Of a stretch of 30,369 nt of DNA, positions 6,493 to 19,285 are shown in pieces. Made by a program: the position numbers and the translations under genes. Numbering within the stretch: the stretch's first letter is position 1; each line of letters opens with the position of its first letter. The notes beneath the pieces were generated by a model, which did no database searches, was not told the origin of the DNA, and saw only the letters and a program-made list of their open reading frames with translations. The stretch comes from a virus. Location of the stretch: IMG/VR virus record IMGVR_UViG_3300025133_000434, positions 1-30,369 of that record; one strand, 5' to 3'.

Positions 6493-7566
6493 ATGGCGTT
6501 TACAACCGCTGAAGTAACGAGTATCGCGAATGCGAGCCTCGATTTCTACCTGAACAAAGGTAAAGCCTTTGATCAGTCTATCCAGAAGAAACCACTCCTC
6601 GACCGTATGCAGAGGGCTAAGAAAACCTTCACTGGCGGTAGAGGAGACATTTCTGTTGGCCTTAAAGGCACCTACGGTGCCGGTGGGACCAACGATGGCG
6701 TCACGGGTTATACCCACGATGACACGGTGTCATTTTATACCCCGGCCAACATCGACCGCGCCGCGTACACTTGGCGTGAGATGCACATTGGTATGGCGTT
6801 GACCCACACCGAACTGAAGATTGACGGCATTTCGGTGGAAGACACGAACGGCGAAGGCACCCGCTCACATTCCAAGCGGGACATGCACACGCTGGTTGGT
6901 CTGCTCGAAAACAAACTGGAAGATTTGGGCGAACAGTATTCTTCGACCATGAACACTCTTCTATGGGGTGACGGCACTGGTGACGCGAAAGCACTCGCTG
7001 GTGTTCAGTCAATCATCTCAGCCACTCCGACGACCGGTACGGTGGGCGGTATCAACCGTGCAACTTCCGGCAACGAGTGGTGGCGCAACCGGGCCCGCAC
7101 GGCGGCTAACGGCACTACTGCCGTTACCTCTGCTGCAACCAGCGGTGGCGTCCTTCTGCAAGCTCTGCAAGAGGAACACCGTCAATTGACCCGGTATGGC
7201 GGAAGCCCGAACCTCGCACTCTGCGGGTCGGACTTCATCGCTGCGATGGAGACCGAACTTCGGGCCAACGGTAACTACTCACAAACCGGTTTCGCTGATG
7301 GCGGAAACGACTTTGCCGTTACCGGTGTCAACTTCATGGGGCAGAAGTTCATCTACGATCCGTCGTTGGATGATCAGTCTCTTCAGAAACGTTGTTACTG
7401 GCTGGATACCAAGGGCGTCTTTTTGATGTGCATGGATGGCGAGTGGAACCGGGCGCATACCCCGGCCCGTCCGTCGAACCAGTTCGTAATGTATCGTTCC
7501 ATCACTTGCACCGGCCAGATGGTCGCGCGCCAGTGTAACTCGTCCTTGGTGATCGACATCCTCTAA
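6493..7566 (+). CDS. Major capsid protein (HK97-fold type)
   Basis: A 357-residue protein with GGAGA upstream of ATG 6493. It follows the scaffold gene and precedes a strong hairpin, the usual place for the most abundant virion protein. The sequence shows a capsid-like pattern: an N-terminal helix, the segment WREMHIGMALTHTELK, a long helix LVGLLENKLEDLGEQY, then TPTTGTVGGINRATSGNEWW, which resembles the 'GGI-R-...-WW/F' segment of HK97-fold coat proteins. The C-terminus is a beta-rich domain ending SSLVIDIL. It should self-assemble into the icosahedral shell. The fold is inferred from pattern and gene order, not from a structural match. Confidence 0.85.
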   Translation: MAFTTAEVTSIANASLDFYLNKGKAFDQSIQKKPLLDRMQRAKKTFTGGRGDISVGLKGTYGAGGTNDGVTGYTHDDTVSFYTPANIDRAAYTWREMHIGMALTHTELKIDGISVEDTNGEGTRSHSKRDMHTLVGLLENKLEDLGEQYSSTMNTLLWGDGTGDAKALAGVQSIISATPTTGTVGGINRATSGNEWWRNRARTAANGTTAVTSAATSGGVLLQALQEEHRQLTRYGGSPNLALCGSDFIAAMETELRANGNYSQTGFADGGNDFAVTGVNFMGQKFIYDPSLDDQSLQKRCYWLDTKGVFLMCMDGEWNRAHTPARPSNQFVMYRSITCTGQMVARQCNSSLVIDIL

Positions 7567-7605: not shown

Positions 7606-7644
7606 GAGACCCGAGGGCTCACCCTCCCGGTGCCCTCGGGTCTC
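7606..7644 (+). terminator. Strong hairpin after the major capsid gene
   Basis: A perfect 13-bp stem (7606-7618 with 7632-7644: GAGACCCGAGGGC and its complement) encloses a 13-nt loop. No run of T follows, so it may be a partial terminator or an mRNA 3'-end stabiliser that raises capsid expression relative to downstream genes. Confidence 0.7.
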
Positions 7645-11964: not shown

Positions 11965-14175
11965 ATGGCGGCGTACACAACAAATCCCGGGTTGGCGGAG
12001 GCATTAGCTGGTTTCGGAAAATCCCTTTTCCCCGACAGCAGCAAACAGATGCAGGCGGCGTATACCCGCGCGCGCGCCGACCGGGCGAACCAGCAGCGTC
12101 TCCAGGTGATCCAACAGATGGAGATAGCAAGGGCACAGGAAGCCCGGGACGCCGCAGAGGCGAAACGGAAAGTCGCCTTGGCCGAAGAAAAAACCGCCGT
12201 ATCAGATCGTCTTGGGAATGTCCTGTCCCGCCAAGGTAAAATTGAGGGTTCGGTGACACCGTTAGTGCCGCAAGGGGTTACCCCCAAGCAATTCATTGGC
12301 CCCATGCGCCCGGGCGTGAAGCATGACATATATGATCAGAGTGATCTCGCCCGTGTCTTGGCACGCGCGGCGGGGCACAAGGACATGGCAGCCGCCAGCA
12401 ACCAAGCCGTCGCCACAACCCACGCCATGACCGGCGGAGATTTTGGGCAAAGACAAGCGGCCTTGGGCGGTTCCAGTAACTCCAGCAATATGGATACTCT
12501 GGCTGCCCGTCGCCAGACAGCAAAACTCCGCGACGCCCAAAAATACGCTGCCAAAGTTAATGAACTGAGGGTGGAGGCGGGTCTCAAACCCATAGACCCC
12601 GACAAGATTTTGCCAGTGGCCCTGCAAAAAGTTACCGGTCTAACCCAAGGTAATGCAAACGACCGCAGCGACGCGATTTCAGCGCGGGATGCAGCCGAAG
12701 CCCTGGCCCTAGAAGATAGAAGGAGCGCGGGTTCGCTGGCTGTTGCGAACGCCGACAACGCCGGAAAGCTCGCTCGTATTGCCCCCCAAGGCGCGGCGGA
12801 TACGCAAAGAGAAGTCGCTGTCCAAACGCACAAAAACATCGGCACGGCGGACGTCGCCAACATCGACAACGCCGGAAAGCTCGCTCGTATTGCCCCCCAA
12901 GGCGTGGCGGATACGCAAAGAGAAGTCGCTGTCCAAACGCACAAAAACATCGGCACGGCGGACGTCGCCAACATCGACAACGCCGGAAAGCTCGCTCGGC
13001 AAAACATGGAACCGGTAGACGTTGGCGAAACAGACACAGCTTTTCTTCCCCCGGGTCACCCGCTGCGTACTGACGCGAACCAGGGTGTTCTGCTGGGCGC
13101 TGGCGCACGGCCCAAGACCGAAGGTGAAGCCGAAGCACTCATTAATCTGACCGCAGGCGGGCCCTACGACGGCACCGGTAAAGATAATCAGTCGCTTAAC
13201 ATCGTTCACAACTTCAATAAATACTACCGGAACCCGGAAGCCCGGGGAAAGCTGGGCCCGGACCATATCGCGATGTACGCCGCCGCGTACCACGAACTGT
13301 ACGGCCCCAAGAAGGTGCGGCTGGGTGTCTACAACAAGCATACGGGCGAGGTCGCTCAACAATGGGTGGACCAACCCGGGATCGCCCCGACACGGGGCGT
13401 TGTTGACCCCGAGAAACTTTACGCGGCGCAAGAAAACCAGTCACGCTCGCCCGCACCGCCCCCCGTGTCTCGTGTCTCCGATGGCGGTGACGCAGCGGAA
13501 CTAATGGCCGCAGACGCCGCCACACAACAGGAGGCCGAAGCGGATGAAGACTTCAAGGCTAACCGGCATAATCAGCCACCCCCACTTAGTACCGCCGGTG
13601 AGGAAGCCGTTATTATCGCCGGTACGGTGATGCCCCCCAAAGCCCGTACCGAAATGCGCGCGAAGGCTTACGAGTATTGGGGCCGCATGACAATCGGCGA
13701 GGCGGGACTACAGAGTAGTATAGACGCCGCAGGCGGTGTCCCGGACGTCTATAATTTCTTTTGGGCCGCCCCGAGCCAAACCATCGGCGGTATGTTGTTA
13801 GGGAATGCGATGGCAAGCTCGGAAGCCAAGGGCTATATGGCGTCCGCGCAGCTATTCTTGAACGCCATACTCCGTCGGGATAGTGGTGCGGCGGTCCCCT
13901 TAACTGAATACCCGCAGTATTGGTCGCAGTTTATCCCCCTGCCGAATGACGACCCCCAAACGCTGATGCGTAAGAAGTGGGCCCGAAAGAGTGCCACGGA
14001 CCTTATGAAAAAGAACGCCGGTCTTACCCCGAGCGAACTCCTGGAGGCGACTAAAAGAGAAGCAGAATTTTTAGTGCAAGACGCGGCTCTCAGAGAGCAG
14101 CCGGGCCAGCAATCCGGCGACAACTCGCAAGTGAAAGCTTTGATGGAAAAATACGGTAAAAACGGTAAAAGTTGA
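11965..14175 (+). CDS. Large internal/ejection protein (gp15-like position) with internal repeats
   Basis: ATG 11965 has AAAGGA about 9 nt upstream. The 736-residue product is close in length to T7 gp15 (747 aa) and holds the same position, between the gp14-like and a longer ejection-type gene. It has a helical, Arg/Ala-rich N-terminal region (residues 25-75). A tandem repeat of 37 residues occupies about 264-345 (unit containing DNAGKLARIAPQG). The C-terminal half carries a globular domain with RTEMRAKAYEYWGRM, and the end is basic (EKYGKNGKS). No enzyme motif is visible. It would be part of the internal core that is ejected to form a periplasmic conduit for DNA. Function is inferred from position and size. 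Confidence 0.65.
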   Translation: MAAYTTNPGLAEALAGFGKSLFPDSSKQMQAAYTRARADRANQQRLQVIQQMEIARAQEARDAAEAKRKVALAEEKTAVSDRLGNVLSRQGKIEGSVTPLVPQGVTPKQFIGPMRPGVKHDIYDQSDLARVLARAAGHKDMAAASNQAVATTHAMTGGDFGQRQAALGGSSNSSNMDTLAARRQTAKLRDAQKYAAKVNELRVEAGLKPIDPDKILPVALQKVTGLTQGNANDRSDAISARDAAEALALEDRRSAGSLAVANADNAGKLARIAPQGAADTQREVAVQTHKNIGTADVANIDNAGKLARIAPQGVADTQREVAVQTHKNIGTADVANIDNAGKLARQNMEPVDVGETDTAFLPPGHPLRTDANQGVLLGAGARPKTEGEAEALINLTAGGPYDGTGKDNQSLNIVHNFNKYYRNPEARGKLGPDHIAMYAAAYHELYGPKKVRLGVYNKHTGEVAQQWVDQPGIAPTRGVVDPEKLYAAQENQSRSPAPPPVSRVSDGGDAAELMAADAATQQEAEADEDFKANRHNQPPPLSTAGEEAVIIAGTVMPPKARTEMRAKAYEYWGRMTIGEAGLQSSIDAAGGVPDVYNFFWAAPSQTIGGMLLGNAMASSEAKGYMASAQLFLNAILRRDSGAAVPLTEYPQYWSQFIPLPNDDPQTLMRKKWARKSATDLMKKNAGLTPSELLEATKREAEFLVQDAALREQPGQQSGDNSQVKALMEKYGKNGKS
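12754..12998 (+). repeat. 111-bp in-frame tandem repeat (two full copies plus partial third)
   Basis: Copies start at 12754, 12865 and 12976, exactly 111 bp (37 codons) apart. The first two differ at very few bases (for example GCGCGGCGG against GCGTGGCGG near 12792/12903, and GCC against ATC just before each unit). The third copy stops after about 23 bp, at GCTCG. The near-identity at DNA level indicates a recent duplication. Confidence 0.92.
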
Positions 14176-16720: not shown

Positions 16721-16727
16721 CGCGATT

Positions 16728-16757
16728 TTAGGGGGAGGTGTTTTTATCTCCCCCTAA
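16728..16757. terminator. Hairpin ending the late operon (possibly bidirectional)
   Basis: A perfect 10-bp stem (16728-16737 with 16748-16757: TTAGGGGGAG and its complement) surrounds a 10-nt T-rich loop. It lies 8 bp after the last late gene on the + strand and 22 bp beyond the tRNA 3' end on the minus strand, so it could stop both transcripts. Confidence 0.75.
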
Positions 16758-16778
16758 ACTTGCAGACCAAGATAATAG

Positions 16779-16853
16779 TGGTGCCGCCGGGGAGATTCGA
16801 ACTCCCGACTTCCCCCTTACCAAGGGGGTACTCTACCCCTGAGTTACAGCGGC
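16779..16853 (-). tRNA. tRNA-Thr (anticodon GGT)
   Basis: On the minus strand a full 75-nt cloverleaf can be folded. The acceptor stem GCCGCTG pairs with CGGCGGC (one G-U). The D arm is ACTC/GAGT. The anticodon stem CCCCC/GGGGG holds the loop TTGGTAA, so the anticodon is GGT. The T arm is GGGAG-TTCGAAT-CTCCC, followed by discriminator A and an encoded CCA. All arms are intact, so it may be functional. It lies 249 bp from the integrase gene on the same strand, a typical position for a phage attachment site. An 11-nt piece covering its anticodon arm recurs at 16934-16944. Confidence 0.93.
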
Positions 16854-16944
16854 GCAAATTGTTAAGTGCCGAACTTCGGTATCTCCCGGTTAAAAATACT
16901 CCGTTAAAACAATTACTTAACTCTCTTAACCCACCCTTACCAAG
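16814..16944. other. Candidate attP region: repeated 11-nt anticodon-arm sequence
   Basis: CCCTTACCAAG occurs at 16814-16824, inside the tRNA-Thr anticodon arm, and again at 16934-16944 in the spacer before the integrase. Tyrosine recombinases often cross over in the anticodon arm of a tRNA. The repeat may be a core-type integrase site or the relic of an older tRNA copy. The att function is inferred. Confidence 0.45.
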
Positions 16945-17021
16945 AATGTGCTCCCAACAAAACCGACACAAGCGATACTGCCAATCCCTTAGAAACCCTA
17001 ACATTCTGTGATAGTCTATCT

Positions 17022-17048
17022 GGACACAACAGGACAAAACGGACAAAT
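17022..17048. repeat. Three short direct repeats GGACAMAAY next to the integrase
   Basis: GGACACAAC (17022), GGACAAAAC (17032) and GGACAAATT (17041) follow each other at 9-10 bp spacing, about one helical turn. Direct repeats phased like this beside an integrase gene resemble arm-type integrase or excisionase binding sites. That role is inferred. Confidence 0.5.
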
Positions 17049-17051
17049 TTT

Positions 17052-17097
17052 GTGCCGAAATGCGGCACTTTCGAGGGATAGTGCCGCATTTCGGCAC
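17052..17097. repeat. Nested 17-bp inverted repeat downstream of the integrase
   Basis: Arms 17052-17068 and 17081-17097 are perfect complements around a 12-nt loop. Each arm is itself a small palindrome (GTGCCG, 5 nt, CGGCAC), so the DNA or RNA can form one long stem or two short hairpins. It starts 5 bp beyond the integrase stop. It may be the integrase terminator, though no T-run follows on the minus strand, or a protein-binding site of the attachment region. Confidence 0.8.
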
Positions 17098-17102
17098 CCG
17101 TA

Positions 17103-18122
17103 TCAAACTCGCCTATTCACTGCGTTCTTCAGATAATCCGGGCTGTGGTGCCCGTAGACCTTGGTGACAGTCTCGACAGTGTCACCTAGAACTCCAGCGA
17201 CGTCCCAGACCGATACTCCCGCACGAAGCATCAACGTCGCGGCGGTATGCCGCAAGACGTGGGGCGTGACCCACGGGTAAGGGGTGCGGTGCCTAAACGT
17301 GTCAAAGGTCTTCCGGATGTCCCCGGGGTCGTCCAGAACAAAACTTCCTCGGCGCTCGGCGTATGCTTTTTGGAGCATCGGCAAGAGCCTGTCGGAAATC
17401 GGCACGGGGACCCGGCGCTTTTTGCTGGTCTTGAGCTTTGGGTCTCGGAAGTCAATCAATTTTTCGGATAGACATACCCGGTCCCAGGTCAACCCTTGTA
17501 TCGCGGATTTGCGCGCCCCGGTGTCTAGGGCTATCGCCACGAAACGGGTCAGACGGGTTAGACGAGGTTTGCCGGAGCTGTGTTTCCCCGCCAGAGCCAG
17601 GAACTCGTTTTCCTGTTGCTCGTTAAGCCATAAATCTCTGGGGGGCCCAGAAGGCGGCAGCTCGATATGCGGGGTGTCTCCAGCGGAGACAAGCCTGTTT
17701 TTGAATCCAAAATTTAAGATTGTACGGAGCGCGCCTAAGTCTCGTCGTAGGGTTCCGTCTGCTACATTACGAAGCACACGAAATTTTAAAAAATCGTCGG
17801 GAGCGATTTCGCGCGGGGTCATGTGACCAAAAAACCGGACGATGTGCTGGACACCGAACATTTGGCCCGCGCTAACGCCCCGGGCTAGGGCGCTACTCTT
17901 ATACTGGGCGGCGATGTCGGCGATAGTCGGGTCGGCCAACGCCTTGGCTATCGCCTGTTCTTGCTTGATGAACTCAGCAAGGACAAGTTTCGCCTCGTTG
18001 AGATTTGCCGTCCGCGTTGTAAGAGTTTTTGTTCTGTAACCAGGACCGCTCCCATCTTTTTCGGAGTAGCGGATTTCGTAGTTCTTTCCGTAACGGCTTT
18101 TTGCGAGGGTTGGGTTGAGCAT
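17103..18122 (-). CDS. int: Tyrosine recombinase integrase
   Basis: ATG 18122 is preceded by AGAGG about 6 nt upstream. The 339-residue protein has an N-terminal arm-binding/core-binding part (residues 1-160) and a catalytic domain. Visible catalytic residues are R204 (DTGARKSAI), a lysine in KTSKKRR (231-236), H288-x-x-R291 (HVLRHTAA) and the nucleophile Y323 (KVYGHHSPDY). The position usually held by His or Trp before the tyrosine is Asp314 (LGDTVETV). The enzyme would insert the phage genome at a matching tRNA site. It is transcribed toward the tRNA-Thr, and its first 175 bp overlap the excisionase-like gene. The VYGHHSPDY form is one I associate with alphaproteobacterial integrases. Confidence 0.95.
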   Translation of the reverse strand: MLNPTLAKSRYGKNYEIRYSEKDGSGPGYRTKTLTTRTANLNEAKLVLAEFIKQEQAIAKALADPTIADIAAQYKSSALARGVSAGQMFGVQHIVRFFGHMTPREIAPDDFLKFRVLRNVADGTLRRDLGALRTILNFGFKNRLVSAGDTPHIELPPSGPPRDLWLNEQQENEFLALAGKHSSGKPRLTRLTRFVAIALDTGARKSAIQGLTWDRVCLSEKLIDFRDPKLKTSKKRRVPVPISDRLLPMLQKAYAERRGSFVLDDPGDIRKTFDTFRHRTPYPWVTPHVLRHTAATLMLRAGVSVWDVAGVLGDTVETVTKVYGHHSPDYLKNAVNRRV

Positions 18123-18280
18123 TCTCTACCTCTTTCAAGAAAATCCAAAAGGTCTATCAGCTTGATGCGGATTGGCTTGCCTCGGTAAAAGGGTAACCTC
18201 CCCGACTGCCGCCACCGCGCGACGGTCCGGGTAGACACCCGGGCCAAGACGGCGGCCTCGGTCTGCGTGATCAGCCGCAC
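17948..18280 (-). CDS. Excisionase-like helix-turn-helix protein
   Basis: GTG 18280 lies 4 bp downstream of the repressor stop; no good ribosome binding site is seen, so coupling is likely. The 110-residue product begins with a MerR/Xis-type HTH and wing: TQTEAAVLARVSTRTVARWR, then SGRLPFYRGKPIRIKLIDLLDFLE (residues 5-50). The remaining 57 or so residues are Ser-, Arg- and Lys-rich, lie in the overlap with int, and may simply be constrained by that frame. Small HTH proteins just before int usually direct excision and can also repress. Overlap of xis with int is known from lambda. The HTH part is convincing; the C-terminal extent is less so. Confidence 0.72.
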   Translation of the reverse strand: MRLITQTEAAVLARVSTRTVARWRQSGRLPFYRGKPIRIKLIDLLDFLERGRECSTQPSQKAVTERTTKSATPKKMGAVLVTEQKLLQRGRQISTRRNLSLLSSSSKNRR

Positions 18281-18737: not shown

Positions 18738-18790
18738 CATGTGGCCTTCCACTTATCGGCCCGCGTGGGTGTCCCAGGGGCGCACCAAAC

Positions 18791-18819
18791 AATATGTTAG
18801 TGTTGTGTTGTAGTGTCAA
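18791..18819 (-). promoter_or_regulatory. Promoter for the repressor-xis-int operon
   Basis: Read on the minus strand, TTGACA (18814-18819) and CATATT (18791-18796) are separated by exactly 17 nt. The -35 box is perfect and the -10 box matches 4 of 6 positions. Transcription would start near 18784, about 45 nt before the repressor start. The -10 box overlaps an operator-like AACA-ATA-TGTT element, which suggests autoregulation. Confidence 0.75.
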
Positions 18820-18870
18820 GAGGATTCGGGCAAACAAAACAACAAAATCCCACGGATTGTGATTTGGCAG

Positions 18871-18899
18871 TTGACCGATGGATACAACATGTGGTTAGT
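18871..18899 (+). promoter_or_regulatory. Candidate early promoter (divergent from the repressor)
   Basis: TTGACC (18871-18876) is followed after 17 nt by GTTAGT (18894-18899). The -35 box is good and the -10 box is poor (3 of 6). The spacer contains the operator-like ACAACATGTG. Transcription would start near 18906, 50 bp before the Cro-like gene. The weak -10 makes the exact position uncertain. Confidence 0.4.
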
Positions 18900-18955
18900 T
18901 TGGTTGGAATAGAACAAGACAACGCACAACATGTTGATTTCAGATTGGAGCCAAA

Positions 18956-19285
18956 ATGGATTTGGAGAACTCAACACCGCCCCCGAAGAGCCCGGATTGG
19001 GACGCGCGAGAGCTGATAAAGAGAGCCGGAGGGTGCGTTGCCATCCGCCGGAATACCAAGGCCCTGGGGTACCGGGTACCGTCCGCGCCACAGGTCTATA
19101 TGTGGCAGAACCGGCAGCGCGTTCCCAGTGAATGGGTAGCGGTCTTGCTTCTCCTCGCAGAGGCGCGTGGTGAGGTGGTAGCTCCGAAAGAAGTCATCAA
19201 AAACATCGTGACGAACCCCGGCGCGGATTTACTGCGTTTTCCCGCAAGAGAAAATCACACGCCGAGTTCCGACCCCTTCACCTGA
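18956..19285 (+). CDS. Cro/YdaS-like DNA-binding protein
   Basis: ATG 18956 has GGAG about 5 nt upstream. The 109-residue protein contains a Cro-like HTH region: ARELIKRAGGCVAIRRNTKA, then RVPSAPQVYMWQNRQRVPSEW and a final helix VAVLLLLAEARGEV (about residues 17-75). The pattern 'L-I-(K/R)-R-A-G-G-...-V-x-x-W-x-x-R-x-x-V-P-x-x-W' is that of YdaS/Cro-type regulators. It is the first gene to the right of the divergent promoter region, where Cro normally lies. It probably shuts down the repressor promoter to favour lytic growth. The C-terminal 30 residues look disordered. Confidence 0.72.
   Translation: MDLENSTPPPKSPDWDARELIKRAGGCVAIRRNTKALGYRVPSAPQVYMWQNRQRVPSEWVAVLLLLAEARGEVVAPKEVIKNIVTNPGADLLRFPARENHTPSSDPFT

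Follow-up and report, generated by a model that had tools for sequence, protein, structure and literature searches.

A nested palindrome between the integrase gene and the attP core of a phage as candidate paired arm-type sites

The DNA that we analysed (the window, 30,369 nucleotides of IMG/VR virus record IMGVR_UViG_3300025133_000434) has its terminase, capsid and further structural-type genes on the plus strand. The structural genes are followed by a minus-strand block that encodes a repressor, an excisionase-like (Xis-like) HTH_17 protein and a tyrosine integrase (int). Past int, in the direction of transcription, lie a palindrome, a block of TGTCC repeats, the candidate attP core and, after 83 nt, a complete phage tRNA-Thr, which was the sole match in an Rfam search of the window. 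The features discussed here are listed below together with their counterparts in contig IMGVR_UViG_3300025889_000269 (L003), the single close relative found.

17951-18280, minus strand: HTH_17 excisionase-like open reading frame, overlapping the start of int
17103-18122, minus strand: tyrosine integrase gene (int); R204, K235, H288, R291 and Y323 present; PF00589
17081-17097: right arm of the palindrome, GTGCCGCATTTCGGCAC; dyad copy 1, GTGCCG-AAATG-CGGCAC on the minus strand
17069-17080, strand not applicable: loop or spacer between the dyads, 12 nt, TTTCGAGGGATA (13 nt in L003)
17052-17068: left arm of the palindrome, GTGCCGAAATGCGGCAC; dyad copy 2, GTGCCG-CATTT-CGGCAC on the minus strand
17023-17045, minus strand: TGTCC direct repeats (TGTCCGTTTTGTCCTGTTGTGTC) with 9-10 bp phasing, 6 nt from dyad copy 2 in the window and in L003
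16949-16972, minus strand: second TGTCGGTTTTGT repeat, adjoining the core
16934-16955, minus strand: attP core candidate GGGAGCACATTCTTGGTAAGGG; TTGGTAA (16937-16943) corresponds to the tRNA-Thr(GGT) anticodon loop
16864-16882, plus strand: third, degenerate dyad copy AAGTGCCGAACTTCGG(TAT) beyond the core, 14/16 identical to 17055-17070 (minus strand)
16779-16853, minus strand: phage-borne tRNA-Thr(GGT), 83 nt downstream of the core; equal spacing in L003
L003 7556-7572: dyad GTGCCGCGTTGCTGCAC, counterpart of window 17081-17097
L003 7586-7602: dyad GTGCCGCAAAACGGCAC, counterpart of window 17052-17068, with TTTTT next

The palindrome begins 5 nt past the int stop codon. Its location between int and the attP core bears out the sequence-only reading, which had placed it between attP candidates and the int stop. 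That reading had also described four GTGCCG/CGGCAC blocks and a perfect 17-bp stem, and both arms matched this description letter for letter at exact coordinates: the 17-nt arms are perfectly inverted, and each is itself GTGCCG-N5-CGGCAC, with copy 1 the first to be met after int and copy 2 the next. This nested palindrome is far beyond chance. No perfect inverted repeat in the window is longer, 60 dinucleotide shuffles reach an arm of 11 at most, and both occurrences of GTGCCG-N5-CGGCAC in the whole window belong to it. The RNA fold z-scores are -7.7 (plus strand) and -6.6 (minus strand), with no shuffle equally stable. As free RNA, the long stem has a calculated energy of -35.7 kcal/mol as opposed to -18.6 kcal/mol for the two-hairpin form. 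This preference of 17 kcal/mol for the long form led us to reject the suggested switch between one long and two short hairpins.

The PF00589 match and the catalytic residues identify the adjoining gene product as an intact tyrosine integrase. A structural model of this protein (overall pLDDT 78, pTM 0.48, hence of moderate quality) aligns with full-length lambda Int structures and predicts an N-terminal beta-beta-beta-alpha fold at residues 5-59 (pLDDT mostly 61-87). The Pfam Int_N model matches 4 of 12 members; the window Int is not among them.

Conservation in relatives, a check that the sequence-only reading had proposed, was seen in L003, which is 68% (int), 81% (terminase) and 71% (DNA polymerase) identical to the window. 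Both dyads of L003 lie directly at the stop codon of an extra 179-aa gene that follows int (7016-7555); this possible cargo gene has no PHROGs match. Past the dyads, the order is 6 nt, TGTCCGTTTTGTC, core, 83 nt and tRNA-Thr. The stem letters of the two phages are the same at 23 of 24 positions, with the N5 loops and the spacer diverged. We counted no compensatory changes in the short stems, and one compensatory change and three broken pairs in the long stem, which in L003 is paired at 14 of 17 positions. Since letters would be free to vary if only RNA pairing mattered, the unchanged stem letters point to DNA sites. This is an indication rather than proof, because the doubly nested design itself limits change. 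Elsewhere, no exact dyad was found in the window, and none with up to one mismatch in the contig of L003.

To look for the motif beyond the core, we compared the hairpin segment with the core-to-tRNA stretch, using shuffles and real segments as controls. The window contains a 14/16 match (AAGTGCCGCATTTCGG / AAGTGCCGAACTTCGG) that was equalled by 0 of 400 shuffles and by 0 of 389 other 77-base window segments. In L003, CTAACAGTACCGCA matches the phage's own dyad at 13 of 14 positions (CTAACAGTGCCGCA; 0/400 shuffles, 0/160 real segments) and stands at the position that aligns with the window copy at 16864-16882. The far-side copy lies 66 bp (window) or 67 bp (L003) from the core centre; for the int-side copies the distances are 120 and 149 bp (window) and 110 and 140 bp (L003). 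When the two phages are aligned, the sole larger gap in the stretch from dyads to core is 10 nt long, about one helical turn. Judged from sequence, this spacing together with the single 10-nt gap would look like that expected of sites on looped DNA.

The core has 11 nt in common with the phage tRNA. From its anticodon loop we infer that attB lies in a tRNA-Thr(GGT) gene; a search for the host attB with GAGCAYATTCTTGGTAA gave no hit in 385 genomes of the class searched. Between 16779 and 16955 (L003 7690-7865), the anticodon-loop core stands 83 nt upstream of the complete tRNA-Thr(GGT), and since both have the same orientation, transcription from the host tRNA promoter could, after integration, continue through the host 5' half into the phage tRNA. 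This arrangement, with its short tRNA-gene core and a phage tRNA of matching isotype, resembles tRNA-dependent lysogeny (Guerrero-Bustamante and Hatfull 2024, PMC10865867). Roseobacter phage CRP-810, whose integration in the middle of tRNA-Thr was shown by its authors (PMC11288001), uses this tRNA-Thr(GGT) anticodon region as well. In CRP-810, however, the tRNA is encoded on the opposite strand and stands between core and int, and its Int is just 24% identical to that of the window. CRP-810 carries CGTGGCACAC on both sides of its core (16/400 shuffles). Apart from the dyads, the TGTCC repeats (17023-17045 and 16949-16972) are the most conserved non-coding block; they are possible excisionase sites or further Int arm sites.

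A terminase-profile scan provided many members of a wider group, and ten of the contigs searched carry a related int; this search covered the terminase relatives apart from a remainder on short contigs. Motif dyads directly after int or its operon occur in L173 (TTGCGTTTT), L170 (TTTTGCGCTGT), L171 (TGGCGCAA), RHph_N65 (TTTGCGCACC) and Rhizobium phage 16-3 (AATCATTG). In these five, the motif returns roughly 120-270 bp further on, in several with short direct repeats in between. The cross-core match was reached by 0/300 (L173), 13/300 (L170), 84/300 (L171), 0/300 (RHph_N65) and 7/300 (16-3) shuffles, so that L171 fails this test though repeats are visible. The dyad of 16-3 is an inverted repeat within the annotated functional attP. 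Ordinary terminator hairpins stand right after int in L165, L167 and L168 (scores 24, 54 and 16), where no cross-core repeat was found. No int was found in the fragments L084 and L085, which are the nearest relatives by terminase, and the L041 contig is without the dyad and spans other genes. Pattern searches of all IMG/VR returned one unrelated match to the nested GTGCCG pattern (a coding tandem repeat), two chance matches besides L003 for the attP core, and only L003 for dyad plus TGTCC. By pattern, no Int was found in GTDB genomes, and repressor-based scans led to a distant Rhodobacteraceae relative without the att region of the palindrome.

Taken together, the repeat, its position, its recurrence past the core, the conserved letters in L003 and the similar layout built from other motifs in related phages argue for the palindrome as a pair of inverted arm-type sites of attP that are probably bound by Int, a reading to which we assign a probability of roughly one half (0.52). 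The palindrome would form the int-proximal distal arm of attP and contain four half-sites of about 9 bp (consensus AGTGCCGCA), arranged as two inverted pairs. These sites and the weaker far-side copy would hold the integrase through its N-terminal domain, while its catalytic domain acts on the anticodon-loop core and attP is folded into a recombination complex. Transcribed into RNA, the palindrome may also help to stop the int transcript before it reaches attP and the tRNA gene. The suggestion that the palindrome might be an integrase or excisionase site thus gains indirect support, by way of the recurrence past the core in both phages and the fixed stem letters, and we infer that the bound protein is Int.

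Tyrosine-integrase attP arms provide the closest precedent (lambda Int; CrimD and Pixie, PMC3203893; Rhizobium phage 16-3). In these systems, as in the window, short sites flank a tRNA-gene core, some of them inverted, and adjoin int; the integrase has its catalytic part preceded by an N-terminal domain, which the structural model predicts for the window Int too. For mycobacteriophage CrimD, inverted arm-type pairs were predicted together with a stem-loop terminator inside attP (PMC3203893). The window differs in that its int-side candidate sites are two abutting dyads that make a perfect 17-bp palindrome. Several observations count against arm-type sites: the palindrome motif itself is carried by only one close relative, L003, the far-side copy is degenerate and in L003 even more so as a dyad, L171 fails the shuffle test, terminators too are placed 0-5 nt past the last stop codon, as the ordinary ones of L165, L167 and L168 illustrate, the conserved TGTCC repeats rather than the dyads could be where the arm-binding part of Int docks, and the Int model has a pTM of only 0.48.

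Terminator function is a serious rival or a possible second role. Under this explanation the palindrome is only a terminator or stabilizing 3' hairpin of the int operon, with the nesting produced by inverted duplication. A GC-rich stem-loop closes the transcription unit, a few nucleotides after int in the window and directly at the stop codon of the extra last gene in L003; this is consistent with a terminator, as are the hairpins just after int in L165, L167 and L168. In L003 the second dyad is followed by TTTTT (score 24; +24.2), and the three longest inverted repeats of the window are all intergenic and 3' of genes. The tail of the window palindrome (AAAATTTGTCC), however, lacks a U-tract and scores -8.9 on the minus strand, the plus strand scores -6.5, and a generic scan, whose loop limit of 8 leaves out the long form, does not call it. 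A terminator would also leave the recurrence past the core and the fixed stem letters unexplained. We consider this explanation rather unlikely on its own. A combined role, in which the DNA serves as the Int-binding distal arm and the RNA ends or destabilizes the int message, such that Int occupancy of attP and the expression of int would be coupled by feedback, appears improbable.

We regard it as similarly doubtful that a partner protein, such as the HTH_17 excisionase-like product, the repressor or a host factor, recognizes the dyads as DNA sites in place of Int. A palindromic 17-bp site would suit a dimeric HTH protein, and the Xis-like gene overlaps int, but repeats on both arms fit Int better, the direct TGTCC repeats resemble Xis sites more, and the repressor-early gene region (18740-18960) contains no such dyad. 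Structured RNA near int and attP also recalls lambda sib/tI, where sib is located past attP and is lost from int upon integration. By analogy, the 17-bp stem of a read-through RNA, perfect and long enough for RNase III, would be cut and the int mRNA degraded. The palindrome lies on the other side of attP, between int and the core, so that integration would not separate it from int. The stem in L003 is paired at only 14/17 positions. RNase III control is not supported, and we consider it very unlikely. A cruciform or a replication signal, both raised by the sequence-only reading, found no support beyond the perfectly inverted arms: the GC skew has no turning point near 17 kb, and the palindrome is kept together with attP. 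We give these ideas almost no weight.

As arm-type sites, the palindrome would provide a function for a structure that is otherwise annotated as an int terminator. Recurrence of the hairpin motif past the core offers a simple test by which, in phages with related integrases, attP arms can be told apart from terminators. The completed attP map of a phage group with its own tRNA-Thr would also make it likely that tRNA-dependent lysogeny reaches beyond actinophages.

Other repeats in the window deserve brief mention. The region upstream of the repressor (18740-18960) contains ACAACATGTTG-like palindromes, which are candidate operators; the idea that the int-side palindrome is itself a repressor operator was rejected, as no dyad of its type occurs there. 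Two further perfect inverted repeats lack a U-tract: one of 13 bp (7606-7644) separates the capsid gene from the gene that follows it, and one of 11 bp (16727-16758) lies where the structural operon converges with the tRNA/int block. Finally, the open reading frame at 11965-14175 contains a near-identical tandem repeat of about 36 aa (IGTADVANIDNAGKLARIAPQG...) at 12740-13020.
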